From Flaviaesturariibacter aridisoli (GTDB lineage Bacteria > Bacteroidota > Bacteroidia > Chitinophagales > Chitinophagaceae), in NCBI RefSeq assembly GCF_004343705.1, contig NZ_SKFH01000033.1, forward strand, positions 1 through 44,407: a stretch of 44,407 bases of DNA, given 5' to 3'. Every line of letters begins with the position of its first letter. Positions within the stretch are counted from its first letter, which is position 1. The position numbers were made by a program, and so were the translations under genes. Below are positions 19,604 through 42,532 of this stretch, one piece after another. The notes beneath the pieces were generated by a model, which saw only the letters and a program-made list of their open reading frames with translations, made no database searches and had not been told where the DNA came from.

Positions 19604-20020
19604 ATGGGAGAAAGAGTTTCCGTATACCGCCGCGAGCACTTCAACGCCGCCCACCGCCTGTTCAACCGGGAGTGGAGCGACGACCTCAACACGAAGGTCT
19701 TCGGCAAGTGCAGCCTGCCGCATTACCACGGCCACAACTACGAGCTCGAGATCAAGGTCACCGGCGACGTGGACCCGCGCACCGGCTTCGTGATGGACAT
19801 GAAGGTGCTTTCCGAGCTCGTGCAGGAGCAGGTGGTGGAGCGCTTCGATCACAAGAACCTCAACCTCGACACGAAAGAATTCCGCGAGCTGAACCCGACG
19901 GCCGAGAACATCGCCATCGTCATCTACCGGCTGCTGCGCCCCTATATCGACAACCAGCTGGACCTGAAGCTGCGCCTGTATGAAACGCCGCGCAACTACG
20001 TGGAATACCCGGCGGAGTAA
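19604..20020 (+). CDS. 6-carboxytetrahydropterin/6-pyruvoyltetrahydropterin synthase family, copy 2
   Basis: A 138-residue paralogue of the gene before it, with the same residues: H17, H42 and H44 for zinc, C36 (FGKCSL), D82/H83 (RFDHKNLNLD) and E101. The two copies differ in the C36-H42 stretch (CSLPHYHGHNY versus CANTNWHGHNY) and may use different substrates or products. TACATTTA 18 bases or so before the start may be a weak -7 element. Heptad repeats begin directly at its stop codon. Confidence 0.88.
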   Translation: MGERVSVYRREHFNAAHRLFNREWSDDLNTKVFGKCSLPHYHGHNYELEIKVTGDVDPRTGFVMDMKVLSELVQEQVVERFDHKNLNLDTKEFRELNPTAENIAIVIYRLLRPYIDNQLDLKLRLYETPRNYVEYPAE

Positions 20021-20048
20021 TTTCAGATTCCGGATTTCAGATTCCGTT
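20021..20048 (+). repeat. Heptad repeat starting at the PTPS stop codon
   Basis: Four 7-base units TTTCAGA TTCCGGA TTTCAGA TTCCGTT begin in the base after the TAA stop of the second PTPS gene. It is one of several families with the same phase (see 25293, 38837 and 40618). Confidence 0.75.
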
Positions 20049-20079
20049 TACAGCAACCAAGCATTAGCGACCCCGAAAC

Positions 20080-20679
20080 ATGGCATATCACAAGAAAGAA
20101 TATTACGACCAGGACGTAACCGAGGGCATGATGGACGCCTACCGACGCATCATTGAGCTGGCGGGCGAGGATACCGGGCGCGAAGGACTGGTGAAAACAC
20201 CCGAGCGCGCCGCCAAGGCAATGCAGTTCAACACGCAGGGTTACACCCTCGACGCCGTGGCCATTCTCAACTCTGCGCGCTTCCGCGAAGACGTGAGCGA
20301 GATGGTGATCGTCAAGGACATCGAGCTCTACTCGATGTGCGAACACCACCTGCACCCCTTTTACGGAAAGGCACACATCGCCTACATTCCCAACGGCTAC
20401 ATCACCGGTCTCAGCAAGCTGGCACGCGTGGTGGACGTTTTCGCCCGACGCCTGCAGGTGCAGGAGCGCCTCACCACGCAGGTGCTCGACGCGCTGCGCG
20501 AAAGCCTCAACCCGCTCGGCGTAGCCGTCGTGATCGAAGCCAAGCACCTCTGCATGATGATGCGCGGCGTGCAAAAGCAAAACTCCGTCACCACCACCTC
20601 GGCCTTCTACGGCGAGTTCCTCGACAACCATGTTACCCGCAACGAATTCCTGAAGCTGATCGGCTCCAGCCTGTCGTAA
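20080..20679 (+). CDS. folE: GTP cyclohydrolase I
   Basis: A 199-residue GTP cyclohydrolase I, which converts GTP to 7,8-dihydroneopterin triphosphate, the substrate of the two upstream PTPS proteins and of folate synthesis. Zinc ligands C87 and H90 ([10 protein letters not shown]) and C158 (LCMMMRG) are present, along with [15 protein letters not shown] and the tail NSVTTTSAF. It is third in the likely pterin operon, and octad repeats start right after its TAA. Confidence 0.95.
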
Positions 20680-20713
20680 TTGGTCTAGTAGTCTATTGGT
20701 TTATTGGTAACTG
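20680..20713 (+). repeat. Octad repeat after folE; left arm of a 14-bp inverted repeat
   Basis: TTGGTCTA GTAGTCTA TTGGTTTA TTGGTAAC are four 8-base units beginning at the base after the folE stop. The last 14 bases (TTTATTGGTAACTG, 20700-20713) are perfectly inverted at 21261-21274, so the four-helix-bundle gene lies between inverted arms. Confidence 0.75.
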
Positions 20714-20755
20714 AGCAGGCGATTTCCTGTTCGATACGTTCAGGGAAAAACACAG

Positions 20756-20783
20756 AATTCCATGAGGGTTTCCTCATGGAATT
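20756..20783. repeat. Perfect 12-bp hairpin upstream of the four-helix-bundle gene
   Basis: AATTCCATGAGG and CCTCATGGAATT pair perfectly around GTTT. An in-frame ATG at 20776 lies inside the stem, making it a poor start and favouring the ATG at 20815. It may be a regulatory hairpin or part of the insertion. Confidence 0.7.
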
Positions 20784-20814
20784 TTCGTTGGCAGGCGATA
20801 CGTTCGCTCAAAAG

Positions 20815-21186
20815 ATGTATTGTCTGGAAGAACTGGAAGTGTATGTGCTGGCACAGCAATTCGGAGAGAAAGTATGGGCGATCGTAGAACAATGGGAGTC
20901 GTTCCCCAAATGGCGCATCGGGAGTCAGCTGACCGAAGCGGCTGACTCCATCGGGTCAAACATTGCGGAAGGGTATGGCCGCTATTTTTTCAAACAACAG
21001 GTCGTGTTTTGCTTTTATGCCCGCGGTTCGTTGATGGAGTGCAGAAGCTGGCTGCTGAAAGCGAAGTGCCGGCAGTTGATCGATACCGAAAAATACGAGG
21101 AGCTGATTGCCGACCTTAAAATCATACACAGGAAGCTGAATGGCTACATTAAGAAGCTGAAGCGTTCCGCGGACAAGAAGACATAA
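20815..21186 (+). CDS. Four-helix-bundle protein (S23 / rRNA intervening-sequence type)
   Basis: A 123-residue protein of the TIGR02436 four-helix-bundle family: MYCLEELEVYVLAQQFGEKV, then SQLTEAADSIGSNIAEGYGR, FCFYARGSLMECRSWL and a basic C-terminus. Relatives are encoded in intervening sequences of 23S rRNA genes and in scattered intergenic insertions; their function is unknown, and RNA binding has been suggested. The start at 20815 gives the usual length. It lies alone between folE and fabD, flanked by inverted octad repeats. Confidence 0.85.
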   Translation: MYCLEELEVYVLAQQFGEKVWAIVEQWESFPKWRIGSQLTEAADSIGSNIAEGYGRYFFKQQVVFCFYARGSLMECRSWLLKAKCRQLIDTEKYEELIADLKIIHRKLNGYIKKLKRSADKKT

Positions 21187-21254
21187 GCCCAAACAGCCTA
21201 CATTTGCCCTCTTGAAGCTGTCGCATTTTTAGACGCCCGATGTAAGCGCCAGTA

Positions 21255-21301
21255 GGTAACCAGTTACCAATAAACGAATCAACCAATAGACCAATAAACC
21301 T
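21255..21301. repeat. Octad repeat, right inverted arm, before fabD
   Basis: TTACCAAT AAACGAAT CAACCAAT AGACCAAT form 8-base units at 21264-21295, the reverse complement of the repeat after folE. CAGTTACCAATAAA (21261-21274) is the perfect inverse of 20700-20713, and GGTAACCAGTTACC (21255-21268) has 6-base inverted arms. Confidence 0.75.
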
Positions 21302-21306
21302 GTTTC

Positions 21307-22197
21307 ATGAAACATGCTTTCGTTTTTCCCGGCCAAGGTGCGCAGTTTCCCGGTATGGGCAAGGCTCATTACGACAACAGCGCGTTTGCCAAGAAATTGT
21401 TCGAGCAGGCCAACGAGCAACTGGGCTTCCGCATTTCCGACGTGCTCTTCAACGGTAGCGAGGAAGACCTGAAGCAGACGAAGATCACGCAGCCTGCCAT
21501 CTTCCTGCACTCGGTCATCGCCTACCGCGGCATCGAAGGGGCCCGCCCCGACATGGTGGCCGGTCACTCGCTCGGTGAGTTTTCGGCGCTAGTGGCCAAC
21601 GGCACCCTCAGCTTTGAGGACGGCCTTCGCCTTGTAAGCCTGCGCGCACAGGCTATGCAGGCCGCCTGCGAGCAAACACCCTCCACCATGGCTGCCGTAC
21701 TCGGCCTGGCCGACGAGCAGGTAGAGACCATCTGCGCCGAGGTGCAGCAGGAGAGCGGCGAAGTGGTGGTACCCGCCAACTACAACTGCCCCGGGCAGCT
21801 TGTGATCTCCGGTACCGTGAAAGGTGTGGAGATCGCGTGTGAGCGCCTCAAGGCCGCCGGCGCCAAGCGCGCCCTCGTGCTGCCCGTAGGCGGCGCTTTC
21901 CATTCGCCGCTGATGGCACCCGCCCGCGAGGAGCTGAAAAGCGCCATCGAATCGACCTATTTCAACACGCCTTCGTGTCCTGTGTACCAGAACGTGGCGG
22001 CGCGCGGCATCATCAATAAAGACGAGATCAAGCAAAACCTGATCGACCAGCTCACCGGCGCGGTGAAGTGGACGCAGTGCGTGCAGGCCATGATCCGCGA
22101 CGGCGCATCCCGCTTTACGGAGTGCGGTCCGGGTAAAGTGCTGCAGGGACTGGTGGCTAAAATCGATAAGAGCATGCAGACCGACGGCTACCAATAA
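21307..22197 (+). CDS. fabD: Malonyl-CoA:ACP transacylase
   Basis: A 296-residue enzyme that loads malonyl groups onto acyl carrier protein for fatty acid synthesis. It starts AFVFPGQGAQFPGMG; the catalytic serine is S88 in AGHSLGE and the catalytic histidine H199 in GGAFHSPLM; the family Q and R residues are in TQPAIF and SLRAQAMQ. Length is normal. It appears to be a single-gene unit here; other fab genes are not in the window. Confidence 0.95.
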   Translation: MKHAFVFPGQGAQFPGMGKAHYDNSAFAKKLFEQANEQLGFRISDVLFNGSEEDLKQTKITQPAIFLHSVIAYRGIEGARPDMVAGHSLGEFSALVANGTLSFEDGLRLVSLRAQAMQAACEQTPSTMAAVLGLADEQVETICAEVQQESGEVVVPANYNCPGQLVISGTVKGVEIACERLKAAGAKRALVLPVGGAFHSPLMAPAREELKSAIESTYFNTPSCPVYQNVAARGIINKDEIKQNLIDQLTGAVKWTQCVQAMIRDGASRFTECGPGKVLQGLVAKIDKSMQTDGYQ

Positions 22198-22263
22198 AAT
22201 TTTAAGAATCTGTTTGCTTTTCGATTTTTTCTCTATTTTAGATGCCTAAACCTCTAACGCTTT

Positions 22264-22761
22264 ATGAGAAAGATTATGTTCCTTTTCGTCGCCCTGCTGG
22301 CGATGGTTTCGTCCTTCGCTTCGGTTACGCCCACGGATGTTCCGAAGAACGCCAACAACATTATGATCCCCGTTGGTTCTACCGGTAAGGCGATCTCCCT
22401 GAAAGCCCTGTCCACGATCAGCATCAAGGAGTACGAGCAGATGTCCGGCCGTCACCTCGGCATGTTCGATCGCATGGGCTTCAAGAAAGCACAGAAGCAA
22501 CTGCGTAAGAACATCGCTACCGACGGTACGCTGAAAGGTAAGCTGGCCAAGCGCACGGAAGGCGAAGGCTTCAGCATCGGCGGTTTCGCACTCGGTTTCT
22601 TCCTCGGCCTGATCGGCGTGCTGATCGCTTACGTTGCTTTCAGCGACGAAGGCAAGAGCAACCGTATCAAGTGGTCCTGGATCGGTCTCGGCGCCGCTGT
22701 GCTGCTGTCGATCATCCTGGTTGTTGCTGTATTCAGCAGCGTGAAGAACTCGGTTGACTAA
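22264..22761 (+). CDS. Membrane protein with signal peptide and two TM helices
   Basis: A 165-residue protein: signal peptide MRKIMFLFVALLAMVSSFAS, a soluble basic segment of about 80 residues, then two helices (IGGFALGFFLGLIGVLIAYVA and WIGLGAAVLLSIILVVAVF). Proteins of this plan are common as unnamed genes in Bacteroidota; I cannot name a function. A strong terminator follows. Confidence 0.75.
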   Translation: MRKIMFLFVALLAMVSSFASVTPTDVPKNANNIMIPVGSTGKAISLKALSTISIKEYEQMSGRHLGMFDRMGFKKAQKQLRKNIATDGTLKGKLAKRTEGEGFSIGGFALGFFLGLIGVLIAYVAFSDEGKSNRIKWSWIGLGAAVLLSIILVVAVFSSVKNSVD

Positions 22762-22784
22762 TCGAATCTGTTTTCACCTTTCGA

Positions 22785-22817
22785 AAAAGCCGGATGCCTC
22801 GCATCCGGCTTTTTCTT
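22785..22817 (+). terminator. Rho-independent terminator
   Basis: AAAAAGCCGGATGC and GCATCCGGCTTTTT form a 14-base stem around CTC, with a T-rich tail, 24 bases after the stop at 22761. Confidence 0.92.
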
Positions 22818-22913
22818 TGCCCTCGCCCGAGGGCTTTTGTGTATCCCGTACGCATTGTCGGGCGCCGAAAGCCGCGCCCCGGGCTGCTTTGAGGACTTTT
22901 ACCTATTTTTTGA

Positions 22914-22948
22914 CGTAGATCTACGATTTGTTCGTTTTGTTAACAAAA
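22914..22948. promoter_or_regulatory. Two perfect palindromes upstream of the metalloprotease
   Basis: CGTAGATCTACG (22914-22925) and TTTTGTTAACAAAA (22935-22948) are both perfect palindromes, 10 bases apart, in the AT-rich region before the protease gene. They look like binding sites for dimeric regulators. No clear TAnnTTTG is present between them and the start at 23003. Confidence 0.5.
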
Positions 22949-23002
22949 ACAAAATATATTGGACATCCAACCCTTTTTCGAACACACACTTACACACACA
23001 CA

Positions 23003-25288
23003 ATGAAGAAACGTTTACTCGTTCTCGGCGCGCTGGCCCTCGGCCTCGCCGCCGGAGCGCAACAGCAGCGCCGTTGCGGCTCCTTCCAGCACTTCCAGCA
23101 ACAGATGGCCCGTAACCCCGAGATGGCCCGCAACCAGCAGGCCATCGAGCAGTTTACGCAGGAAGCCGCGGCACGACCGCAGGCCAACAGCACCCTGCGC
23201 GGAACACCGGTGTACAACATCCCCGTTGTGGTGCACGTGCTCTGGAACACCTCGGCACAAAACATCTCCGACGCGCAGATCCTGAGCCAGATCGATGTGC
23301 TCAACAAAGACTACCAGCTCAATAACGCCGATACCGGCCTCGTGCCCGCAGCCTTCAAGAGCCTTGTAGCCGATTGCCGCGTGTCCTTCTGTATGGCACA
23401 ACGCGACCCCGCCGGCAACGCCAGCACCGGCATCCTCCGCAAGCAAACCACCAAGACCTCCTTCAGCGCCGACACCGACGACGCCAAGTCGAACAGCACC
23501 GGCGGTGACAACGCCTGGGACCGCAACAGTTACCTCAACCTGTGGGTCGTTCCGTCGATCACCTCGGGCGGCCAGGGCGGCATCCTCGGTTACGCGCAAT
23601 TCCCCGGCGGCGCTGCCGCCACCGACGGCGTGGTGATCGGCTACAACTACTTCGGTACCACGGGTGCCGTGTCGGCGCCCTTCAACAAGGGCCGCACCGC
23701 CACCCACGAAGTGGGCCACTGGCTCAACCTGCGCCACATCTGGGGCGATGAGGCGGCCTGTGCCGCCGACGACCTTGTGGGCGACACGCCGCTGCAGGGC
23801 GCCGAGAACTACGGCTGCCCCACCTTCCCGCACACCGATGCCTGCTCCGGCGGCAACGGCGTGATGTATATGAACTACATGGACTACGTGGACGATGCCT
23901 GCATGATGATGTTCAGCAACGGCCAGAAGACCCGCATGTACGGCGTGCTGCAAACCGGCGGCGCCCGCGCGTCGCTGGCTTCCTCGCTCGGTTGCCAGGC
24001 ACCCTCGGGTGGCACCTGCGCCGCGCCCGCAGGCCTGACGGCATCTTCCATCACCACTACCAGCGCCACGATCAGCTGGGGCGCCGTGAGCGGTGCCGCT
24101 TCGTATGCCGTAGACTACAAGGCCACCAGCAGCGGTACCTGGATCGCCATTTCCACCGCGCAAACAACCACCTCCGCCTCCCTCAGCGGGCTGACGGCAG
24201 GCACCTCGTACGACTACCGCGTGCGCACGAACTGCTCGGCCTCCAACAGTGCTTATACGAGCGCACAGTTCACCACGACCTCCGGCGGTACGGGCTGCGG
24301 AACGGCCTATGAGCCCAATGAAAGCCTGGCGGCTGCCGCTGCCGTGGCCACGAATACGGCCCTCTCGGCTGCCATCACCACCACTACCGACCAGGACTGG
24401 TTCAAGGTGACGCTGGCTTCTGCCTCTAATTTCAACATTTCCCTCAGCGGCCTCGCCGGCGACTACGACCTCGTGCTGTATAACAGCGCCGGCACCCAGC
24501 TCGCCATTTCCCAGAACGGCGGCACCACCAGCGAGTCGATCACTACGTCGAACAGCGCAGCGGGCACCTACTATGTTAAGGTATTCGGCTACAACGGCGC
24601 CATGAGCGCTACCTGCTACAGCCTCAACATCGGCGCTACGGTAGTAACGGCGCCCACCTGCCCCGGCACGTACGACAACAGCACCAACGGCACCACCAGC
24701 GGCGCTGCGCAGATTCCCTTCAACACCGATGTGAAAGGAACGATCGGTAGTTCTACGGATGTGGACTACTACAAGTTCGTGATCACCACCGGCGGCAGCA
24801 TCACCCTTACGCTGGGCACGCTCCCCGCCGACTACGACCTGCGCCTCTACAACAGCGCCGGCACCCAGCTGGCCGTATCGCAGAACGGAAGCACCACGAG
24901 CGAGTCGATCTCCTACACGGCCGCTGCGGGCACCTACTATGCCTACGTGTTCGGCTACAGCGGCGCCAACAACGCCACGACCTGCTACACGCTGAAAGTA
25001 GCGCTCGGCACGGCCACGCGCCAGGCCGACCCCGCCATCAGCGGTAAGGTGAAGCTCGATGTGTTCCCGAACCCCGTCGCCCAGACGCTCAACGTGTCGG
25101 CACAGGGCCTCGAAGGCCGCGCCCAGCTCCGCGTGATCGACATGAACGGCCGCCCCGTACTGCAGCAGGGCCTGCTGCGCAGCAGCACCACCATCGGTGT
25201 GCAGGCGCTCGCCCGCGGCGTGTACTCGGTGCAGGTGATCGGCGCCGACGGCACCGTGATCGGACAAACCCGTTTTGTAAAGCAATAA
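23003..25288 (+). CDS. Secreted M43-like metalloprotease with FN3, two PPC domains and a T9SS signal
   Basis: A 761-residue exported protease. Signal peptide at 1-19; catalytic domain about 65-330 with zinc motif HEVGHWLNLRH (H235, E236, H239, H245) and a Met-turn at MNYMDY, as in pappalysin-type (M43) metzincins. A fibronectin type III domain follows at about 335-420, two pre-peptidase C-terminal domains at about 430-545 and 550-670 (both with DYDLxLYNSAGTQLA), and a T9SS type A sorting domain in the last 75 residues (LDVFPNPVAQTLNV, then GVYSVQVIGADGTV). It should cross the outer membrane by T9SS. The ATG at 23003 follows an (AC)n-rich leader; the longer frame upstream lacks a signal peptide. 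Confidence 0.92.
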   Translation: MKKRLLVLGALALGLAAGAQQQRRCGSFQHFQQQMARNPEMARNQQAIEQFTQEAAARPQANSTLRGTPVYNIPVVVHVLWNTSAQNISDAQILSQIDVLNKDYQLNNADTGLVPAAFKSLVADCRVSFCMAQRDPAGNASTGILRKQTTKTSFSADTDDAKSNSTGGDNAWDRNSYLNLWVVPSITSGGQGGILGYAQFPGGAAATDGVVIGYNYFGTTGAVSAPFNKGRTATHEVGHWLNLRHIWGDEAACAADDLVGDTPLQGAENYGCPTFPHTDACSGGNGVMYMNYMDYVDDACMMMFSNGQKTRMYGVLQTGGARASLASSLGCQAPSGGTCAAPAGLTASSITTTSATISWGAVSGAASYAVDYKATSSGTWIAISTAQTTTSASLSGLTAGTSYDYRVRTNCSASNSAYTSAQFTTTSGGTGCGTAYEPNESLAAAAAVATNTALSAAITTTTDQDWFKVTLASASNFNISLSGLAGDYDLVLYNSAGTQLAISQNGGTTSESITTSNSAAGTYYVKVFGYNGAMSATCYSLNIGATVVTAPTCPGTYDNSTNGTTSGAAQIPFNTDVKGTIGSSTDVDYYKFVITTGGSITLTLGTLPADYDLRLYNSAGTQLAVSQNGSTTSESISYTAAAGTYYAYVFGYSGANNATTCYTLKVALGTATRQADPAISGKVKLDVFPNPVAQTLNVSAQGLEGRAQLRVIDMNGRPVLQQGLLRSSTTIGVQALARGVYSVQVIGADGTVIGQTRFVKQ

Positions 25289-25292
25289 GAAC

Positions 25293-25320
25293 GTGAACCG
25301 TGAGCCGTGAGGCGTGAGCG
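25293..25320 (+). repeat. Heptad repeat (GTGARSC type) after the protease
   Basis: GTGAACC GTGAGCC GTGAGGC GTGAGCG: four 7-base units starting 4 bases after the protease stop. The inverse of the same family forms the larger array at 25414-25502. Confidence 0.8.
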
Positions 25321-25376
25321 GTTGCACCCATCCTGTTTTCAACACCCATACACACACCAACACACACACAAGCGAC

Positions 25377-25410
25377 AAGGCCGCCCTTTTGGGCGGCCTT
25401 TTATTTTCTT
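25377..25410. terminator. Rho-independent terminator after the protease
   Basis: AAGGCCGCCC and GGGCGGCCTT pair around TTTT, with a T-rich tail. It lies between the two halves of the heptad repeat, and after an (AC)-rich stretch at 25340-25370 that resembles the leader of the protease gene. Confidence 0.88.
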
Positions 25411-25413
25411 CAT

Positions 25414-25502
25414 TCACGGCTCACGCTTCACGCTTCACGGCTCACGCTTCACGGCTCACGCTTCACGCCTCACGCCTCACGGCTCACGCTTCACGCCTCA
25501 CG
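25414..25502. repeat. Heptad tandem array (TCACGSY), 12.7 units
   Basis: Twelve consecutive 7-base units of the form TCACGGC, TCACGCT or TCACGCC plus a partial one, with only the last two positions varying. The array runs into the 3' end of the minus-strand GNAT gene: the GNAT stop codon and last three or four codons are made of array units. Confidence 0.9.
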
Positions 25503-25945
25503 TCAATAGCGCAGTTGAACCATTCCCCGTCGAAGGTGGCGTTGTATTTCTTGTAGAAGTTGATGGCGGGCTCGTTCCACTGCAGCACCTGCCACACGAT
25601 GCCCGCAAGGCCCTGGCGGGCCGCCTCGTCGATGAGGTTTTCGAAGAGGGCGCGGCCGAGACCATAGCGCCGCATTTCTTCCCGCACATAGAAATCTTCG
25701 AGGTACAGGCGCTGTCCCTTCCAGGTGCTGAAGCGGATGTACCAGAGCGCGAAGCCTTCCACGGTTCCGTCCACCTCGGCTACGAAGGCCCACCACACGG
25801 GGTTTGCGCCGAAGCCGCTCTCGGTGAAATGGGCTTCCGTTACGGTCACTTCTTCGGGGGCGCGCTCATAGAGGGCGAGCTCTTTGACGAGCTCCAGGAT
25901 GCGGGGGCAGTCTTCACGGGTGGCGCGGCGTATGTTGATGTCCAT
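25484..25945 (-). CDS. GNAT family N-acetyltransferase
   Basis: A 153-residue GNAT acetyltransferase: MDINIRRATREDCPRILELV at the start, EVDGTVEGFALWY, LYLEDFYVREEMRRYGLGRA (acetyl-CoA loop of the R/Q-x-x-G-x-G/A type) and WNEPAINFYKKYNATF. The pattern is like the spermidine/diamine acetyltransferase group, but the substrate is unknown. Its last residues (DVRREA and stop) are encoded by the heptad array, so the natural end may have been shifted by the repeat. Confidence 0.9.
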   Translation of the reverse strand: MDINIRRATREDCPRILELVKELALYERAPEEVTVTEAHFTESGFGANPVWWAFVAEVDGTVEGFALWYIRFSTWKGQRLYLEDFYVREEMRRYGLGRALFENLIDEAARQGLAGIVWQVLQWNEPAINFYKKYNATFDGEWFNCAIDVRREA

Positions 25946-25970
25946 AGAAATTGTCGTTAATTAGCGGACC

Positions 25971-25978
25971 CAAAAGTA
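25971..25978 (-). promoter_or_regulatory. -7 element of the GNAT gene
   Basis: TACTTTTG on the minus strand matches TAnnTTTG, 25 bases before the ATG at 25945. Confidence 0.5.
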
Positions 25979-25991
25979 GAACGAAACAACC

Positions 25992-26489
25992 ATGAAGGAG
26001 CTGCTGCTTTCCTATGCACAATACAACGCCTGGGCCAACGAGGCCCTGCTGGGCGCCATCTGCGCGCTGCCGGCCGAACAGCAGGAGCGCGAGTTGGTCA
26101 GCTCTTTCCCTTCCCTTCGAAGAACCCTGTTGCACCTGCTCGACGCCGCCAGCATCTGGTGGCAGCGCGTGCAGCTGCAGGAAAAGGTCGTACGTCCCAG
26201 CGACAGCTTCGGCGGCGACGGCGATGCCCTGGCGCTCGCGCTCAAAAAGATCGACGCGCAGTGGCTCGAGTTTGTGCAAAAGGCCGGCGAGCACGTGCTG
26301 CAGCACGAATTCATCTACCTCGATAGCAAGCGCGTGCAGCACAAGTCGGTAACGGGCCACGTGCTGCAGCACCTGTTCAACCACGCTACCTACCACCGCG
26401 GCCAGCTGGTGACCATGTTGCGCCAGGTGGGCGCCCCCACGGTGTCGAATACCGATTACATCGCCTGGAGCTGGAAGAAGCATGCGTGA
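25992..26489 (+). CDS. DinB family protein
   Basis: A 165-residue four-helix DinB-like protein, a superfamily of putative metal-dependent enzymes, some of them thiol transferases. It shows SYAQYNAWANEALL, a histidine in RTLLHLLDAASIWW, and the C-terminal HVLQHLFNHATYHRGQL with the two metal-type histidines. Substrate unknown. It overlaps the RDD gene by 8 bases. Confidence 0.88.
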   Translation: MKELLLSYAQYNAWANEALLGAICALPAEQQERELVSSFPSLRRTLLHLLDAASIWWQRVQLQEKVVRPSDSFGGDGDALALALKKIDAQWLEFVQKAGEHVLQHEFIYLDSKRVQHKSVTGHVLQHLFNHATYHRGQLVTMLRQVGAPTVSNTDYIAWSWKKHA

Positions 26490-26874
26490 CGAGCCCTGCG
26501 ACATCCTGGCCGACCTCGATGGTCCCGAAAGCGCGCCGGCGCCTTCCTACAAGCGCCTGCTGGCCACGCTGATCGACTTCGCACTCGCCCTGGCGCTGCT
26601 GCTGGCGATCAACTGGTGGAGCTGGCCCGGGAGCTTGCCCGGGCTGCTGCGCTACCTCGTAGCGGGGCATACGCTGCTGGTCATCTTCATGCACCTCGCC
26701 CTGCGGCTCGTTACCCTGCTGTTGCTGGCGCATACGCCCGGCATGTGGGTGCTGCGCGTGGAACTGCTCGACGCCGACGGCCACCGCCCGACACGAATGG
26801 AGCGCCTGCTGGCAGGTTGCTTCGTGCTGTACCGCGGCGTCGATTATTACCCGGTCAACCGGTTGATCCGTTAA
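26482..26874 (+). CDS. RDD family membrane protein
   Basis: A 130-residue protein with a short cytoplasmic N-terminus, the RDD-like start YKRLLATLIDFALALALLLA (helix 1), a second helix at HTLLVIFMHLALRLVTLLLL, then the conserved TPGMWVLRVELLDADGHRPT segment. The role of RDD proteins is poorly known, with transport suggested. It is translationally coupled to the DinB gene. Confidence 0.82.
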   Translation: MRDEPCDILADLDGPESAPAPSYKRLLATLIDFALALALLLAINWWSWPGSLPGLLRYLVAGHTLLVIFMHLALRLVTLLLLAHTPGMWVLRVELLDADGHRPTRMERLLAGCFVLYRGVDYYPVNRLIR

Positions 26875-26903
26875 CCGGTTCATCCATTAATGCGCGGCTT
26901 CGG

Positions 26904-27239
26904 TTACAGCTGGATCATCTGGCCGATGACGTCCTGCGGACTACCGGCCGTGCCCATCACATTCACCTGGTCGAAGTAGTTGTACCAGCCGGCGCCTTCC
27001 ACCATCTTTTCAAAGCCTTGTGCGGCCTCGCTGTTCGGGAAGGTCCAGACGGCGAAGTAATCGTAGCCGGCCCGGTTAAAGGTGGCTGCTTCGTTGCGGC
27101 CCCAGCTTACGATCTGGACGCCGTTTTCCAGTAATTGCTGGATGGCGGGGCCGAGGGCATTCATGTAGTTGCCGCGTTCTTCCTGCGACAGGTCGAGCCA
27201 GGCTTGTTTGGCCTTCCATAATTCCACGTACGTGATCAT
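26904..27239 (-). CDS. Conserved hypothetical protein (111 aa)
   Basis: A 111-residue soluble protein: MITYVELWKAKQAWLDLSQE, IVSWGRNEAATFNRAGYDYF, WTFPNSEAAQGFEKMVEGAG and YFDQVNVMGTAGSPQDVI. The alternating strand and helix pattern suggests a dimeric alpha-beta barrel (ABM/EthD-like) fold; it may belong to DUF6616, which I cannot confirm. The ATG at 27239 is preferred over a long upstream frame that lacks such a pattern. Confidence 0.75.
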   Translation of the reverse strand: MITYVELWKAKQAWLDLSQEERGNYMNALGPAIQQLLENGVQIVSWGRNEAATFNRAGYDYFAVWTFPNSEAAQGFEKMVEGAGWYNYFDQVNVMGTAGSPQDVIGQMIQL

Positions 27240-27257
27240 CGGTTTAGTAGTTTGAAT

Positions 27258-27265
27258 CAAACTTA
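27258..27265 (-). promoter_or_regulatory. -7 element of the 26904-27239 gene
   Basis: TAAGTTTG on the minus strand matches TAnnTTTG, 18 bases before the ATG at 27239. Confidence 0.5.
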
Positions 27266-34248: not shown

Positions 34249-34262
34249 CCTAAACCAATAGC

Positions 34263-36042: not shown

Positions 36043-36064
36043 TACCAAGCTTTAATAAGGGACA

Positions 36065-37414
36065 ATGCTACAAAAAAATTACCTGATCCGGAATATACAG
36101 GTGGTCAACGAAGGCCGCATCGTGACGCAGGACGTATGGATCCGCGGGGGGCGCATCGAAAAGATCGGCAGCGCGCTGAAAGTGGGCGACGTTGCCTGCG
36201 AAGAGATCGACGGCACGGGCAAGCACCTGCTCCCCGGCGCCATCGACGACCAGGTGCATTTCCGTGAGCCGGGTCTGACGCACAAAGCCACGATCTATAC
36301 CGAAGCCAAGGCAGCAGTAGCCGGCGGCGTCACCTCCTTCATGGAGATGCCCAACACGGTGCCGCCGGTGTTTACGCAGGAGCTGCTTGAAGAAAAATAT
36401 GCCATTGGCGCCCGCAGCTCGCTGGCCAACTACTCCTTTTATATGGGCACCTCCAACAGCAATGTAGACGAGGTGCTGCGTACCAACGATAAGAAACAGG
36501 ATGTGTGCGGCGTCAAGATCTTCATGGGCGCCTCCACCGGCAACCTGCTGGTGGATAATTACCTCAGCATCGACCGGGTCTTTGCCGGCAGCGAGCTGCT
36601 CATTGCCACGCACTGCGAGGAAGAGCCGATTATCAAAGCCAACTACGAGCGGCTGAAGGCGGAGAAGGGCGAGCTTACGCCTTCCGATCACCCGCTGGTG
36701 CGCGACGAGGAGGCCTGCTTCGAGTCGTCGTTCAAGGCCGTGCAGCTGGCCAAGAAGCACGGCACGCGGCTGCACATCCTGCACATTACTACAGCGCGCG
36801 AACTGCAGCTGTTCGGCAACATGCTGCCACTTACCGAAAAGCGGATCACGGCGGAAGTGTGCGTGCACCACCTGCACTTTACCTCCGACGATTATGCGCA
36901 GCACGGCTACGACATCAAGTGCAATCCCGCCATCAAGGCGCCGCAGCACCGCGAGGCGCTCTGGGCGGCCCTCCTCGACGACCGCCTCGACGTCATCGCC
37001 ACCGACCACGCGCCGCACCTGCGCTCGGAAAAGACGGGTCCCTACGAGCACGCCCACGCCGGCCTGCCGCTGGTGCAGCACCCGCTGCTCCTGATGCTGC
37101 ACTATTATCAGGAGGGCCGCATTCCGCTGGAAACGGTAGTCCGCAAGATGAGCCATGCGGTGGCCGATTGCTTCGGAATCCAAGACCGCGGCTATATCCG
37201 CGAGGGCTATTGGGCCGACCTGGTGATCGTGGACCTCACCGCCCACACCGATGTGACGCCGGAGAGCCTGCACTATACCTGCGGTTGGAGCCCCTTCGAG
37301 GGGATGCGTTTCCCGGCACGGATCACCCATACTTTCGTAAACGGCCATAAAGTTTATGCAAACGGCCTGTGGAATGAATCTCAGATGGGGCAGCGGCTGC
37401 GCTTTGACCGGTAG
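36065..37414 (+). CDS. Dihydroorotase-type amidohydrolase
   Basis: A 449-residue amidohydrolase of the dihydroorotase family (pyrimidine synthesis: dihydroorotate from carbamoyl-aspartate). Seen: LLPGAIDDQVHFREPGL, AGGVTSFMEMPNTVPP, ATHCEEE, LHILHITTARE and IATDHAPHLRSEK. In the usual HxH metal motif the first histidine is replaced by glutamine (Q63, with H65). The remaining metal histidines and aspartate (HCEEE, HILH, DHAPH) are present, so it may use a modified metal centre. The stop codon TAG is the first base triplet of the 37412-37500 repeat. Confidence 0.85.
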   Translation: MLQKNYLIRNIQVVNEGRIVTQDVWIRGGRIEKIGSALKVGDVACEEIDGTGKHLLPGAIDDQVHFREPGLTHKATIYTEAKAAVAGGVTSFMEMPNTVPPVFTQELLEEKYAIGARSSLANYSFYMGTSNSNVDEVLRTNDKKQDVCGVKIFMGASTGNLLVDNYLSIDRVFAGSELLIATHCEEEPIIKANYERLKAEKGELTPSDHPLVRDEEACFESSFKAVQLAKKHGTRLHILHITTARELQLFGNMLPLTEKRITAEVCVHHLHFTSDDYAQHGYDIKCNPAIKAPQHREALWAALLDDRLDVIATDHAPHLRSEKTGPYEHAHAGLPLVQHPLLLMLHYYQEGRIPLETVVRKMSHAVADCFGIQDRGYIREGYWADLVIVDLTAHTDVTPESLHYTCGWSPFEGMRFPARITHTFVNGHKVYANGLWNESQMGQRLRFDR

Positions 37415-37500
37415 CCCATCCCCGACCCTTCCCAAAGGGAAGGGAGTTTGAAACCGCCTCTGTTCCCCTTCCCTTCGGGAAGGGGTTAGGGGATGGGCTA
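37412..37500. repeat. REP/BIME-like element with 12-bp terminal inverted repeats
   Basis: TAGCCCATCCCC (37412-37423) and GGGGATGGGCTA (37489-37500) are perfect inverted ends. Two inner hairpins (CCCTTCCCAAAGGGAAGGG and CCCCTTCCCTTCGGGAAGGG) lie between. Half units of the same family occur at 34290 and 38876. The first three bases are the stop codon of the dihydroorotase gene. Confidence 0.8.
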
Positions 37501-37510
37501 AACAGAATCT

Positions 37511-38839
37511 ATGCTTGTAGACCAAATAACGCTCAACGACCTGGCCATCTTTCACCCGGAAGAGGAGTACTCGATCTTTCACCGGCTCAACTTCACCCAG
37601 ACGAACGTCGGGAAGGAGTGGCTGCGCCATTTTTTCAGCGAGCCGCTGTCCGATATTGAAAAGATCCGCGGTACCCAGCGCATCCTGCGCACACTGATGG
37701 AACGCGCGGCGGAGTGGCCGAAGGAGATCTCCAACGGCACGATGCACGTGATCGACCGCTTCTTCGACTACCAGCTTGGGTTTATCTCCAGCAGCCACAA
37801 TAAGGTCAGCGCCCTTACGTACCGCCTTTTCAACAGCGGCGACTACTCGATGGTCCGGTACTCGGTGATGCACTTTGCCGATTTCTACCGCGGCCTGAAG
37901 GTGTTGCTGGGGTTGCTCCAGAATACCGAGCTGCCGCGGCAGCTCGCCGCGCACCTGGAACGCATCGATTCCCTGCTGCGCGAGAAGCCCCTGGCGGAAC
38001 TGGCCGCGCTGGACCCGAAGCAAAAGCTCAGCATACAGGAGAACCTGTACTTCGCTTATTACCTGCGTGGGGCCTATAAAAGCCGCACGCTCGAGCTCAT
38101 CGACATCTTCGGGCGCCTCGAGGCCTGGCATTCGATGGCGCTGGCCATGCAGCGCTTCGGTTTGCAGTTCCCCGAATTCGTGGCTGGCAGCCAGCCACAG
38201 CTGCACAGCAAGGGATTGTACCACGTGCTGCTGCGGCAGCCGGTGGCCTACGACCTGCTGATGGACCCGGCGCAGAACTTCGTTTTCCTTACCGGCGCCA
38301 ACATGGCGGGCAAAAGTACCCTGATCAAGGCCACGGGCGCCGCGGTATACCTGGCCCACCTGGGTATGGGCGTACCGGCCGCGCACATGCGCCTCACCCT
38401 GTTCGACGGCCTGCTGTCGAACATCAATGTGACCGACAACATCGTCAAAGGCGAATCGTATTTCTACAATGAGGTGCAGCGCATCAAGAACACCATCGTC
38501 AAGATCAACGACGGGGGCAAATGGCTGGTGCTCATCGACGAGCTGTTCAAGGGCACCAACATGCAGGACGCGATGAAATGCTCGCTGACAGTGATTAAGG
38601 GGCTGGTGAAGATGCACAATTCGCTGTTCATCCTGTCGACCCACCTCTACGAGATCGGGGAGGATCTGAGAGGGTACCCCAACATCGCCTTCAAGTATTT
38701 CGAAACGACCGTGGAGAACGACCAGCTTTCTTTCTCCTACCAATTGCGCGAAGGCATCTCCAACGACCGGATCGGGTACGTTATCCTAAGGCGGGAGAAG
38801 GTCGTGGACCTTCTCGAGAGCCTCGGAGGGAATGTCTGA
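37511..38839 (+). CDS. MutS-like ATPase, C-terminal type
   Basis: A 442-residue MutS-family ATPase without the N-terminal mismatch-recognition domain. Residues about 1-240 are the helical lever/clamp region; the ABC-type ATPase follows, with Walker A at 262-270 (TGANMAGKST), FDGLLSNINVTDNIVKGESY and Walker B LVLIDELFKGTN. Short MutS-like proteins of this type are common in Bacteroidota; their function is not settled and mismatch repair is unlikely. The stop codon lies in a heptad repeat. Confidence 0.88.
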   Translation: MLVDQITLNDLAIFHPEEEYSIFHRLNFTQTNVGKEWLRHFFSEPLSDIEKIRGTQRILRTLMERAAEWPKEISNGTMHVIDRFFDYQLGFISSSHNKVSALTYRLFNSGDYSMVRYSVMHFADFYRGLKVLLGLLQNTELPRQLAAHLERIDSLLREKPLAELAALDPKQKLSIQENLYFAYYLRGAYKSRTLELIDIFGRLEAWHSMALAMQRFGLQFPEFVAGSQPQLHSKGLYHVLLRQPVAYDLLMDPAQNFVFLTGANMAGKSTLIKATGAAVYLAHLGMGVPAAHMRLTLFDGLLSNINVTDNIVKGESYFYNEVQRIKNTIVKINDGGKWLVLIDELFKGTNMQDAMKCSLTVIKGLVKMHNSLFILSTHLYEIGEDLRGYPNIAFKYFETTVENDQLSFSYQLREGISNDRIGYVILRREKVVDLLESLGGNV

Positions 38840-38930
38840 TGTAGGATGTCGGATGTCTGGTTTGACGGGAACGATCTCCCTTTCCTTAGGGAAGGGGCGG
38901 GGATGGGTCGGATGTCAGATTTAAGGTTAC
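38837..38930 (+). repeat. Heptad repeat and REP-like half unit after the MutS-like gene
   Basis: TGATGTA GGATGTC GGATGTC starts with the TGA stop codon itself (38837-38857). A REP-like hairpin (CCCTTTCCTTAGGGAAGGGG with a GGGATGGG tail) follows at about 38877-38910, and a further GGATGTC at 38912-38918. TACCTTTC just before the next gene (about 10 bases) may be a weak -7 element. Confidence 0.7.
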
Positions 38931-38939
38931 CTTTCTGGT

Positions 38940-40583
38940 ATGTTGAAGAAGCTTCTTTCGCTGTTGTTCTTGTTGCCCCTTCTGGTGACGGCGCAGGATA
39001 TCGATGTGCAGCATTACGCGTTCGCGATCCGGCTGTTTGACAGCACCGACCGGATCGAAGGGGAGACGTACCTGGACATCCGCTTCCCCGGCGGCAACCG
39101 CTCCTTTGCTCTCGATCTCGTGGGCAAGAAAGCCAACGGCAAAGGCATGACGGTACAGCAGTTCAACGGCTATAACGTAGCTTCCTGGAAACAGGAAGGC
39201 GACCGCATCCTCGTGGAACTAAAAGAAGGCATCAACAACCAGGACGCCTACCGCTTCCAGGTCAGATACAGCGGCATACCCGCCGACGGCCTCATCATCT
39301 CGAAAAACAAATGGGGTGACCGAACGTTCTTCGCCGACAACTGGCCCAACCGCGCGCACCATTGGATCCCCTGCAACGACCGCCCCGACGATAAAGCCTC
39401 CTTCGAGTTCCGCGTGACCGTTCCGGCGCCCTACACCGTGATCTCCAATGGCGCCGCGGAGCAGGACAAGGATGCCGACGACCCGGAAAAATGGGCCGCG
39501 GGTCCGCGTCATTATTACTACGTGGAGCGTACGCCACAGCCTACCAAAGTGATGGTCATCGGCGCGGCGCGCTTCGCGGTGAAGACCTTTGAGGATAGTC
39601 CGCAGGGCATACCGGTGTCCGCCTGGGTGTACCCGCAGGACAGCAGCAAGGGCTTTTATGATTACGCCGTGGCGCCCTCCATTCTCAAATTCTTCAGCAG
39701 CTACATCGCGCCCTTCCCTTACAGCAAGCTCGCCAATGTGCAGTCGAAGACCATCTTCGGCGGCATGGAGAATGCTTCGGCCATCTTTTATGCCGAGGAA
39801 AGCGTTACCGGCGATCGCAAGTGGGAAGACGTCATTGCCCACGAGATCGCGCACCAGTGGTTCGGCGACATGGCTTCGGAGAAAAGCTTCGCGCACCTCT
39901 GGCTCAGCGAGGGCTTCGCAACGTATTTCACCAACCTGTACATCGAGCACAAATACGGCACCGACAGCATGCGGAAGCGGCTGCAGGACGACCGCCGGAA
40001 GATCATCGGTTTCGTAGCGGCCAATCCCACGCGTGCGGTGGTGGATTCGACGCAGAACCTGATGTCGCTGCTCAACGCCAACAGCTACGACAAAGGTGGC
40101 TGGGTGCTGCACATGCTGCGGCAGGAAGTGGGCGACACTGCGTTTCAAACGATCATCCGGAAATATTACGAAACTTATAAAGGGAGCAATGCCGAAACGC
40201 GCGACCTGCAACGGATCGCCTCCGAAGTGAGCGGCAAGCCGATGGATACCTTCTTCAACCAATGGCTCTACCGGGGGGGTATTCCTTCCTTGTATTTTAG
40301 TAAAAAGGTCAAGGAGGGGAAAGTGCTGATCGAGGTAGCGCAAAAAACGCGTGAGCCCTTTTCCTTTACGCTGGAAGTCGGCCTGCTGGACAATTCCGGC
40401 AAGCTCACGCTCCACAGGATCCCGGTGTCGGAGCGGCAAACCACTATTAAGCTGGAAACCGGTAACCGGTCCGGGATCAAAGTACTGGTCGATCCGAATA
40501 CCTCACTGTTGTTCCAGGAGTCGGCAGAAAAAGGAAATTACTTCCGCGTGCGGAAAGGCGCCGGGCCGGGTAGCGTTAACTAA
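38940..40583 (+). CDS. M1 family metallopeptidase (aminopeptidase N type)
   Basis: A 547-residue gluzincin. Signal peptide about 1-18 (MLKKLLSLLFLLPLLVTAQ), an N-terminal beta domain, the exopeptidase motif GGMENA at 274-279, and the zinc site HEIAHQWFGD (H301, E302, H305) with the third ligand E324 in LSEGFATYF. It is shorter than full aminopeptidase N because the C-terminal armadillo domain is absent, a common variant in Bacteroidota. It likely trims peptides in the periplasm. Confidence 0.92.
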   Translation: MLKKLLSLLFLLPLLVTAQDIDVQHYAFAIRLFDSTDRIEGETYLDIRFPGGNRSFALDLVGKKANGKGMTVQQFNGYNVASWKQEGDRILVELKEGINNQDAYRFQVRYSGIPADGLIISKNKWGDRTFFADNWPNRAHHWIPCNDRPDDKASFEFRVTVPAPYTVISNGAAEQDKDADDPEKWAAGPRHYYYVERTPQPTKVMVIGAARFAVKTFEDSPQGIPVSAWVYPQDSSKGFYDYAVAPSILKFFSSYIAPFPYSKLANVQSKTIFGGMENASAIFYAEESVTGDRKWEDVIAHEIAHQWFGDMASEKSFAHLWLSEGFATYFTNLYIEHKYGTDSMRKRLQDDRRKIIGFVAANPTRAVVDSTQNLMSLLNANSYDKGGWVLHMLRQEVGDTAFQTIIRKYYETYKGSNAETRDLQRIASEVSGKPMDTFFNQWLYRGGIPSLYFSKKVKEGKVLIEVAQKTREPFSFTLEVGLLDNSGKLTLHRIPVSERQTTIKLETGNRSGIKVLVDPNTSLLFQESAEKGNYFRVRKGAGPGSVN

Positions 40584-40584
40584 C

Positions 40585-40617
40585 AAAAAGCCCCACGCTT
40601 TCGGTGTGGGGCTTTTT
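40585..40617. terminator. Rho-independent terminator between converging genes
   Basis: AAAAAGCCCCAC and GTGGGGCTTTTT form a 12-base stem, starting 1 base after the aminopeptidase stop. It serves both the aminopeptidase and the E2 gene that converges on it. Confidence 0.92.
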
Positions 40618-40652
40618 AATATCAGGCATCCGACGTCCTGCATCAGGCATCA
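40618..40652 (-). repeat. Heptad repeat starting in the E2 stop codon
   Basis: On the minus strand the bases read TGATGCC TGATGCA GGACGTC GGATGCC TGATATT, five 7-base units of which the first begins with the TGA stop of the E2 gene. The units resemble those after the MutS-like gene (GGATGTC). Confidence 0.85.
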
Positions 40653-42332
40653 AACCAGCATGGTCACCGGGTTCTCGAGGAACTTCTTAAAGGTTTGCAG
40701 GAAGGCGGCACCCACGGCTCCGTCCACCGAGCGGTGGTCGCAGGAGAGGGTCACTTTCATGACGTTGCTTACACCGAAGCCGTCGCCCTTGCGCACCACC
40801 ACTTCCTTGATGCGGCCAACGGCCATGATGGCCGAGTCGGGCGGGTTGATGATAGCGGTGAACTCTTCGATATCCATCATGCCCAGGTTGGAGATGGTGA
40901 AGGTGTTGCCGGTGAATTCGTTCGGCTGCAGTTTCTTGTTGCGGGCCTTGCCGGCGAGCTCCTTCGATTCGGCGCCAATCTGCGACAGCGTCTTCTGGTC
41001 GGCGAAGCGGATGACGGGAACAATAAGGCCGTCTTCGATAGCCACGGCCACGCCGATGTGCACGTGCTGGTAGGTGCGGATAAAGTCGACCATCCAGCTG
41101 CTGTTCACGGCCGGGTGCTTGCGCAGGGCCATCGCGGCGGCTTTCACCACCATATCGTTGAAGGAGATCTTGACGTCGCTTACCTCGTTCATCTTCGCGC
41201 GGGCTTCCATCGCTCCGTCCATGTTGATCTCCATGGTGAGGTAGAAGTGCGGGGCGTTGAATTTCGATTCGCCGAGACGCTTGGCGATGACCTTGCGCAT
41301 CTGCGATACGTTGGTATCGGCGTATCCTTCTTCACCTGCGACGAAAGAAGTTTGGGGTTTGTTTTTTGTGGTTTGTTGTTGGGCTGACGGCTGCTGTTGG
41401 CTTGCTTGCTGCGGCTTGAAATTGTCAACGTCGCTCTTCACGATGCGGCCACCGTCGCCGGAGCCGGCCACCTGGGAAAGGTCGATGCCTTTTTCTTTGG
41501 CGAGGGCCTTTGCGAGGGGAGAGGCTTTTACACGTCCATCCGAAGAGGCGCCGGTTTGGGCCGGGGCGGCTTCTGGTGCCTTTTCTTCCTTAGCCGGTGT
41601 TCCCGCCTGCGCCGAAGCTGCGGCGGGCGAGCCTTGTTCGTTATTCGCTGTTCCACCGCCGCCTTTGGCTGCGGCTACGATGGCATTCACGTCCACCTTG
41701 CCTTCTTCGCCAATGATGCACAGCAGGTCGTTTACGGCTACTTTCTCGCCGGGTTGCCCGCCCTGGTAGAGCAGGGTGCCGTTCTTGTAGGATTCGAGTT
41801 CCATCGTGGCCTTGTCGGTTTCGATGTCGGCCAGCACGTCGCCTTTTTTCACCGTGTCGCCCACTTTCTTGTGCCAGGAGGCAATGACGCCTTCGGTCAT
41901 CGTATCGGAGAGGCGGGGCATGAGCACCACTTCTTCCATTTTGGAAACGTCTACAGTGGGAGTTGCGGTTGCCGCAGCGGCCGGAGCGGCTGCGGGAGCG
42001 TTGCCCTGCTGTTGCGCAGGGCCTTGTTCCCCTGCTGGTTGCGCGGCGGGCTGGTTCTGCGGTTGCCCGCCTTCGAGGCCGCTGATGTCTTCACCCGGCG
42101 CACCGATGATGCAGAGCAGGTCGTCTACCTGGATCTTTCCGCCCTTGTCGGCGCCGAGTTTCAGGATGGTGCCTTCCTTGTAGCTTTCGAGCTCCATGGT
42201 GGCTTTATCGGTTTCAATATCTGCCAGGATCTCCCCTTTCTTCACGGTGTCGCCGACCTTTTTGTGCCAGGCGGCGATCACGCCTTCGGTCATCGTGTCG
42301 CTCAGGCGGGGCATTTTGATCACTTCAGCCAT
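40650..42332 (-). CDS. Dihydrolipoamide acyltransferase, E2 component
   Basis: A 560-residue E2 subunit that carries acyl groups on lipoyl arms to CoA. Two lipoyl domains (about 1-80 and 131-210) each hold the lipoyl lysine in ETDKATMELES (K43 and K174). Long Ala/Gln/Pro linkers separate them from the peripheral-subunit-binding domain (about 268-305, SPLAKALAKEKGIDLSQV) and the catalytic domain, where DHRSVDG supplies H533 and D537. It is probably the partner of the E1 at 1449-3509; most similar to pyruvate-type E2 in plan. The stop falls inside a heptad repeat. Confidence 0.93.
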   Translation of the reverse strand: MAEVIKMPRLSDTMTEGVIAAWHKKVGDTVKKGEILADIETDKATMELESYKEGTILKLGADKGGKIQVDDLLCIIGAPGEDISGLEGGQPQNQPAAQPAGEQGPAQQQGNAPAAAPAAAATATPTVDVSKMEEVVLMPRLSDTMTEGVIASWHKKVGDTVKKGDVLADIETDKATMELESYKNGTLLYQGGQPGEKVAVNDLLCIIGEEGKVDVNAIVAAAKGGGGTANNEQGSPAAASAQAGTPAKEEKAPEAAPAQTGASSDGRVKASPLAKALAKEKGIDLSQVAGSGDGGRIVKSDVDNFKPQQASQQQPSAQQQTTKNKPQTSFVAGEEGYADTNVSQMRKVIAKRLGESKFNAPHFYLTMEINMDGAMEARAKMNEVSDVKISFNDMVVKAAAMALRKHPAVNSSWMVDFIRTYQHVHIGVAVAIEDGLIVPVIRFADQKTLSQIGAESKELAGKARNKKLQPNEFTGNTFTISNLGMMDIEEFTAIINPPDSAIMAVGRIKEVVVRKGDGFGVSNVMKVTLSCDHRSVDGAVGAAFLQTFKKFLENPVTMLV

Positions 42333-42416
42333 CTTTATTCTTTGATTTTAGGGGCCGAAAATAAGCCAAAAACGAGGAAAACAGCGGGAAACCACGCAAA
42401 CGATAGCGGAGAAGCA

Positions 42417-42461
42417 GGTTTTGAAGGTTTTGCTGGTTTTGCTGGTTGTGAAGGGTTGTAA
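42417..42461. repeat. Tandem 9-bp repeat
   Basis: GGTTTTGAA GGTTTTGCT GGTTTTGCT GGTTGTGAA GGGTTGTAA: five degenerate 9-base units in the gap between rsmG and the E2 gene. Confidence 0.8.
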
Positions 42462-42493
42462 GGCCGTACCGTAAGTGCTGGCAGGGAACAGGC

Positions 42494-42532
42494 TTTCCCA
42501 ATAAACCAGTCGACTAATAAACCAGTAAACTA
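42494..42532 (-). repeat. Octad repeat starting at the rsmG stop codon
   Basis: On the minus strand, directly after the TAG stop of rsmG, come TTTACTGG TTTATTAG TCGACTGG TTTATTGG. It is the same family (TTTATTGG) as the repeats flanking the four-helix-bundle gene. Confidence 0.8.

Follow-up and report, generated by a model that had tools for sequence, protein, structure and literature searches.

Short, degenerate tandem repeats with a step of seven, eight or nine nucleotides lie against the edges of genes in Flaviaesturariibacter aridisoli. The window in which they were noticed is the whole stretch of 44,407 nucleotides analysed here, contig C33 of an 84-contig, 4.37-Mb genome (G000). The heptad repeats are real and spread over the whole of this genome. 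An initial annotation had described them as attached to stop codons, but abutment to stops is one half of a wider gene-edge rule, in which the arrays touch stop codons and tend to halt slightly before start codons. The explanation that we lean towards, at a little less than an even chance of being right, is that they are satellite-like arrays that survive in untranslated flanks under a filter imposed by translation signals, with the stop attachment mostly a by-product. That many repeat words obey the same rules helps to tell the possible causes apart, and some annotated genes owe their stop codon and last residues to an array that lies over the gene end.

Abundance and placement at gene edges

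We sampled 1.218 Mb of the 4.374 Mb of G000, 540 kb of the approximately 3.7 Mb of a second genome (G021), 246 kb of G118, a sister of G021 in the same genus, and 120 kb of G004. The G000 contigs were chosen among those holding the TCACGNN-type pattern, and G021 was chosen for its high match count. Genes were called with our own codon-model script, not a published gene finder, and the polarity counts cover arrays that lie outside coding sequence and are flanked by a gene on each side. An 844-kb sample of G000 has 560 intergenic regions that together measure 108.5 kb. Lag 7 yields 91 arrays in them, lag 8 yields 18 and lag 9 yields 14, while ten dinucleotide shuffles average 0.0, 0.5 and 0.0 arrays at these lags. 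Each of the lags 5, 6 and 10-13 gives 0 to 3 arrays, and 731 kb of coding DNA contains 6 lag-7 arrays. The 7- and 8-base phase reported earlier is thus borne out, with both lags far above the shuffles, but it is not exclusive, as 9-base families also exist. A scan of intergenic DNA at 7 and 8 bases, with stop distances set against controls, had been suggested as a check; it returned both this lag-7 excess and the stop excess given below, and did not refute the earlier observation. The pattern TCACGNNTCACGNNTCACG has 329 matches in G000 and its backward control 0. Eleven clusters of at least four arrays take in 195 of the 211 arrays of the 1.218-Mb sample (the clustering omits smaller families, 16 of 211 arrays in G000 and 11 of 95 in G021). 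Their units include GTGARSC, GTTTGTA, GATNTCN and GGAAGTC, 8-mers like TTTATTGG and 9-mers like GGTTTTGAA.

The placement test covers 204 of the 211 G000 arrays, and the expectation comes from arrays put at random inside their own intergenic regions. Within 5 nt of a stop there are 74 arrays where 30.5 are expected (z 9.1), and the zone 6-40 nt from the stop is depleted (24 vs 59.2). At start edges it is the nearest 5 nt that are depleted (14 vs 25.8) and the positions at 6-15 nt that are enriched (31 vs 16.1, z 3.9). The stop itself is covered by 37 of 82 near-stop arrays in G000 and 16 of 37 in G021, and 21 of the 37 and 7 of the 16 covered stops keep phase with the unit that follows. A repetition of the stop exactly 7 nt downstream is found for 15 of 68 near-stop 7-mer arrays against 26 of 1028 genes in G000, and for 8 of 33 against 21 of 446 genes in G021. 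Such in-phase stops would be expected of a stop-bearing unit, of a length that is not a multiple of three, running into the gene end. For seven array-covered stops with orthologues, the difference in C-terminal length is 0 in six and +3 residues in one. TAA is used little at near-stop arrays of G000 (23 of 82, vs 458 of 1030 genes); in G021 it is found at 12 of 37 near-stop arrays, at 15 of 43 arrays more than 40 nt off and in 239 of 446 genes.

An insertion or slippage process aimed at stop codons, as was first suggested for the window, would account for the excess within 5 nt and for the depletion that follows it. Arrays are however found at start edges as well, with a polarity and a spacing peak of their own, and covered stops are often in phase, so that dedicated targeting of stop codons is not needed. 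In the sister comparison described below, short sister junctions also have an array-bearing counterpart less often: 1 of 17 below 40 bp, compared with 16 of 70 between 40 and 400 bp. We regard such a process as very unlikely. The alternative raised along with it, a role in the mRNA at its 3' end, may yet apply. The attachment as such stands, both genome-wide and at seven of the nine sites named in the window, but it is not specific to stops.

Strand polarity and codon content

The arrays have a strand polarity, a feature that was missing from the initial annotation. When the G-richer strand is set against the nearest gene, 170 of the 211 G000 arrays point outward, 36 inward and 5 are equal. 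Stop edges within 10 nt have 72 outward and 11 inward, and beyond 10 nt the outward preference is absent (9 to 18); start edges have 46 to 0 at 3-30 nt and 33 to 4 beyond 30 nt. The ratio is 26 to 6 in convergent regions, 25 to 5 in divergent ones, and 16 to 10 for arrays more than 60 nt from both genes. G000 and G021 together give 115 outward and 10 inward at start edges and 123 and 45 at stop edges, with 13 of 306 arrays equal; orienting each family by its own majority gives 128:33 at stops and 113:5 at starts, which is inflated, and the counts by G-richer strand are therefore used. Outside the arrays, intergenic DNA is skewed in this direction too, but less strongly and only in the approximately 20 nt nearest to starts (GT excess 0.10-0.15); stops have no such skew. 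Among small samples, G126 (60 kb) has 8 outward and 1 inward of 9 arrays, and replication failed in G081 (80 kb) and G013 (137 kb), each with 1 array.

It is conceivable that the polarity reflects a telomere-like directional growth, in which the G-rich strand gains units at its 3' end and arrays that point into genes are eliminated. The 5' end of the G-richer strand is nearer the gene in 237 of 293 arrays and the 3' end in 54, and GTGAGRC precedes GTGAATR in 8 of the 9 G021 arrays that have both, which would suit such growth. The order of GATGAC and GATGTTG is on the other hand 11 to 12, and no regularity gradient along the G-richer strand is significant in either genome (p 0.06-0.82). The lean in G000 is 30 to 54 one way for arrays of at least 28 nt and 8 to 4 the other way for those of at least 56 nt. 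Directional growth seems to us highly improbable.

In 141 G000 and 77 G021 7-mer arrays, compared with 200 unit-position shuffles, the C-richer strand has 0.39 and 0.26 ATG/GTG/TTG per 100 nt (1.34 and 1.55 shuffled), and the G-richer strand 8.64 and 10.51 stops per 100 nt (5.63 and 7.41 shuffled). The strand that serves as leader ahead of a start codon is almost devoid of start-like codons, and its complement abounds in stops, both beyond what the shuffles give. At stop edges, 94 of 120 arrays are outward where the G-richer strand has more stops, and 29 of 48 where it has not. We hypothesize that arrays expand inside intergenic DNA, where they may arise by slippage during replication or by template switching at a hairpin, with a shift of roughly one unit. 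They are found as dispersed families of units, and an intergenic region often has two arrays of one family in inverted orientation. Their survival would be set mainly by selection on the neighbouring genes, with arrays retained in untranslated flanks, as their position and codon content suggest. Directly before a start codon, the tolerated strand would mainly be the one without ATG, GTG or TTG. Gene ends would favour the stop-bearing strand, as an array reaching the gene end would have to supply a stop, and a stop-bearing unit out of step with the codons would yield one in frame within a few units.

Several observations weigh against such filtering by translation signals. Convergent regions are still outward in 42 of 51 cases, the outward strand being stop-richer in 34 and poorer in 8. 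Arrays 3-15 nt past a stop are outward in 38 of 42 cases, and in 5 of 8 where the G-richer strand has no surplus of stops; start edges are outward in 14 of 19 cases even without more start-like codons on the G-richer strand. The Xanthomonas unit GGGAATC, judged from the unit and not from the genome, has no ATG, GTG, TTG or stop on either strand, yet Rehm et al. (2015; PMC4692102) describe the polarity for it. In G021, TAA is low also at the arrays far from stops, so that stop use does not single out the abutting arrays there. The arrays share families and are hence not independent, which makes the shuffle deviations too small. The lack of a regularity gradient belongs here too, and so do the first observations on neighbouring arrays and their spacers below.

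Inverted pairs and the sister genome

In four samples from three genomes, neighbouring complementary arrays have the G-rich arm to the left and the C-rich arm to the right in 53 of 63 pairs, with 1 reverse, and neighbouring non-complementary arrays in 16 of 27, with 0 reverse. Only 1 of 10 arm-to-arm spacers matches the sister's intergenic region, vs 52 of 111 array-free 45-bp pieces, a comparison where the spacers have the lower power, as 6 of 8 in one batch were shorter than 45 bp. With a single spacer in ten looking ancestral, arm, spacer and arm may arrive as one unit. Of 45 spacers, 9 have a match to some other spacer (8 of 21 in G021, 1 of 24 in G000), which moves our weighting slightly towards a mobile element and slightly away from satellite-like arrays. 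The same family is found at both arms of one intergenic region in 22 of 38 cases in G000 (random 0.12) and in 30 of 30 in G021 (random 0.27).

The sole pair with reversed polarity, at G021 C1:247762-247883 (L149), is an inverted repeat with degenerate 9/10-mer arms (CTTTGTGCC). REP-like palindromes, GTGCGAGACC-TCT-GGTCTCGCAC and GTCGCC-TCT-GGCGAC, are nested in heptad inverted pairs at several G021 loci:

G021 C1 sample, 136124-136565, 137340-137677 (L143), 203931-204411 and 205054-205390 (L147): palindromes within heptad inverted pairs

REP/BIME and MITE elements are dispersed intergenic inverted repeats, and a polar mobile element of this kind could be imagined, where arm, spacer and arm are inserted together, often by a stop and with a G-rich 5' arm, and where single arms are remnants. 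It would explain why 69 of the 90 neighbouring pairs are polar in one direction and 1 in the other, why so few spacers match the sister, and why the ancestral flank persists outside the pair at G21|192, G21|224 and G21|217; the palindromes in some G021 spacers and the spacers that match each other also speak for it, and Y1 transposase matches are concordant in two sister pairs (4 vs 0 in G021/G118, 5 vs 0 in G164/G087). The arms in G000 and G021 are however phased tandem heptads, unlike REP, BIME or MITE elements, and 36 of the 45 spacers match no other spacer. When arms were matched locus by locus, an arm fitted its own partner no more closely than it fitted the rest of the family (median rank of the partner 0.46 and 0.52; partner the best match in 2 of 24 and 3 of 21 cases). 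Moreover, 79 of 156 arrays have no second array in their intergenic region, the polarity also holds for non-complementary arms, and the length gain of many pairs equals that of the arrays alone. A link to the Y1 (RAYT-like) transposase was rejected, as TCACGNN and Y1_Tnp matches are uncorrelated over 23 genomes (Spearman 0.19, p 0.39), and G081 has 119 TCACGNN matches and 0 matches to Y1_Tnp (PF01797). All in all we find a mobile element possible but rather unlikely. The idea that arrays flank a gene as a cassette was dropped as well, the same family occurring across a gene in 2 of 12 cases in G000 (random 0.12) and 3 of 5 in G021 (random 0.27), numbers that are too small.

The comparison of G021 with G118 rests on 113 reciprocal best hits and 88 conserved gene adjacencies, with distances anchored on aligned residues. 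G021 has 95 arrays in 540 kb, vs 3 arrays of any kind in 246 kb of G118. The 17 of 88 adjacencies with arrays in G021 are a median of 105 bp longer than in G118 (16 of 17 positive, Spearman 0.91), and when the array bases are removed the residual is -9 bp; the median difference for the 71 array-free adjacencies is -3 bp. In this sister pair, conserved gene junctions are thus lengthened by the arrays. Distances of -4 and -1 bp at sister junctions had hinted at insertion into overlapping genes, but they came from doubtful start codons and vanished with anchored distances.

Known heptameric repeats and the sites in the window

The distribution of the repeats is very uneven. The TCACGNN pattern, so common in G000, has 1 and 0 matches in two genomes of the same genus, and G021 has 460 where G118 has 0, which makes gain or loss directly testable in these sisters. 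It occurs in 37 of 195 genomes of the family and 26 of 296 of the phylum, with variable bases that differ among genomes; the 195 genomes of the family contain 1 match to its backward control. In the distant Bacteroidota genus g139, the backward control GCACTNNGCACTNNGCACT matches 125 (G408), 92 (G284) and 56 (G348) times; this is perhaps another 7-mer family, and other genomes may use other words. Eighty named loci around one gene (723 kb) hold 36 lag-7 and 15 lag-8 arrays, where one shuffle each gives 0. The best named-record matches to a 138-aa protein of the window come from metagenome genomes, one of Chitinophagaceae (88%) and two of Flaviaesturariibacter (84% and 82%).

The STRR heptanucleotide repeats of cyanobacteria are degenerate 7-mer tandem arrays between genes, and the kinship with heptanucleotide repeats of other bacteria that had been proposed for the window holds in kind. 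In a study of quadruplex DNA, Rehm et al. (2015; PMC4692102) treat heptameric repeats with one unit per genome, GGGAATC in Xanthomonas and GGGGA(C/T)T in Nostoc PCC 7120. In that paper they are intergenic with variable 7-nt units, mostly lie within 50 bp of a stop (sense) or a start (antisense), sometimes overlap stops, form 70 and 75 convergent (inverted) pairs of GGGAATC in two Xanthomonas strains, and are under-represented between divergent genes. The arrays of G000 and G021 share the 7-nt intergenic units, the G-rich strand that is sense after stops and antisense before starts, and the close inverted pairs. They differ in having many families, 8- and 9-mers included, and in that divergent regions carry arrays (18 of 106; convergent 15 of 89, tandem 80 of 324). 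They also lack four G3 tracts with loops of 1-7 nt (0 of 211 arrays in G000, 0 of 95 in G021), and quadruplexes of four G3 tracts can therefore not be the general cause; four G2 tracts are found in 57 arrays of G000 and 37 of G021.

Similar repeats have been described elsewhere. The TAACTGA repeats of marine Beggiatoaceae (MacGregor 2015; PMC4679880) are intergenic 7-mer arrays, some overlapping stops, with a patchy occurrence across phyla that includes five Bacteroidetes; in the main genome most of them directly precede a start and share one orientation, and 169 sets include a single indirect repeat. The intergenic 7-mers, the overlap with stops and the patchiness are as in our arrays, the single unit is not, and exact TAACTGA doublets number 0 in 1.218 Mb of G000 and 0 in 540 kb of G021. 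The four-unit heptanucleotide elements of Geobacter metallireducens (PMC2700814) are likewise dispersed tandem 7-mers, here of GGGACCG in 49 places, but they also lie within genes, and the section that describes them mentions no gene-edge rule. Among the top-ranked papers of our literature search, with few subscription papers covered, none described gene-edge heptad families in Chitinophagaceae. Heptameric intergenic repeats with gene-edge polarity are thus already known; what is new is that many units share this geometry without four G3 tracts.

The cause should then be something that the units have in common: step length, strand composition or translation signals. Besides the filtering by translation signals that we prefer, one could speculate about a single process that is indifferent to the unit word, advances in steps of 7 nt and has an inherent strand polarity; in several phyla (Bacteroidota, Xanthomonas, cyanobacteria) it would write arrays that run outward from the edges of genes. 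The unit words would be accidental, and step and polarity would stem from shared replication or repair machinery and not from quadruplexes, hairpins or regulation. We hold this to be unlikely, at perhaps a quarter of the whole. A hypothesis cited by Rehm et al. (PMC4692102), from another author, takes seven bases as the DNA segment in the polymerase active site. Functional untranslated elements maintained by positive selection, be they sites for an RNA-binding protein or long hairpins that determine where mRNAs end or how stable they are, would fit the presence of arrays in both 5' and 3' flanks and the inverted pairing. MacGregor suggests that TAACTGA copies upstream of starts have a role in translation, with reference to heptamer binding by CspB (PMC4679880), and in the transcript data presented by Rehm et al. 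most Xanthomonas arrays are transcribed, with transcripts starting or stopping more often at quadruplex-capable arrays (PMC4692102). Rehm et al. found no regulatory role, and both the near absence of arrays in G118 and the many unit families in one genome argue against functional elements, which we consider improbable.

In the window, all nine repeat sites named earlier are present in the sequence. Each was tested by its lag identity against the best equal-length stretch in 200 shuffles of the approximately 600-bp neighbourhood, with site limits set by hand. For seven of the nine (protease, GNAT, MutS-like, E2, 19088, folE and 21264), no local shuffle reached the observed value at the named period. 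The site of the second PTPS gene is a perfect 14-mer and was reached at lag 7 by 14 of 200 shuffles, and the rsmG site, called as a 16-mer, at lag 8 by 9 of 200. Only the sites at 19084-19111 and 21266-21300 do not abut a stop codon. The arrays are:

19084..19111, unstranded: 7-mer array GGTAACC GGAAACC GGAAAC in the gap of a divergent gene pair, with the start at 19143 following after 31 nt; lag identity 0.81, 0/200 shuffles
20018..20046, + strand: 7/14-mer array ATTTCAG ATTCCGG from the TAA of the second PTPS gene; 14-mer with 100% matches, lag 7 14/200
20679..20709, + strand: 8-mer array TTGGTCTA GTAGTCTA TTGGTTTA at the folE stop; 0/200
21266..21300, - strand: 8-mer array, + strand ACCAATAA, ending 6 nt before the start at 21307; 0/200
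25292..25319, + strand: 7-mer array GTGAACC GTGAGCC GTGAGGC, 3 nt past the protease stop, left arm of an inverted pair; 0/200
25413..25502, - strand: 7-mer array, + strand TCACGSY, right arm of the pair with 25292..25319, covering the GNAT TGA (25484-25486); 0/200
26854..26890, unstranded: 16-mer array overlapping the stop of the left of two convergent genes; lag-identity shuffle test
38832..38857, + strand: 7-mer array TGATGTA GGATGTC GGATGTC over the MutS-like stop; 0/200
40621..40655, - strand: degenerate 7-mer array TGATGCC TGATGCA GGACGTC GGATGCC from the E2 TGA, below the genome-wide threshold; lag identity 0.64, 0/200
42416..42450, + strand: 9-mer array GGTTTTGAA GGTTTTGCT in the rsmG/E2 interval; repeat call
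42500..42532, - strand: 8/16-mer array TTTACTGG TTTATTAG over the rsmG TAG; lag 8 9/200

A further, tenth site at 38909-38927, outside the earlier list, is at chance level (93 of 200 local shuffles reach it). The end of the second PTPS gene has different unit words in three related genomes (L058 5421-5498, L059 5419-5454 and the window at 20018-20046), and within the E2 coding sequence, at 41351-41380 of the window, there is a 7-mer-like run of TTTGGGG TTTGTTT TTTGTGG.

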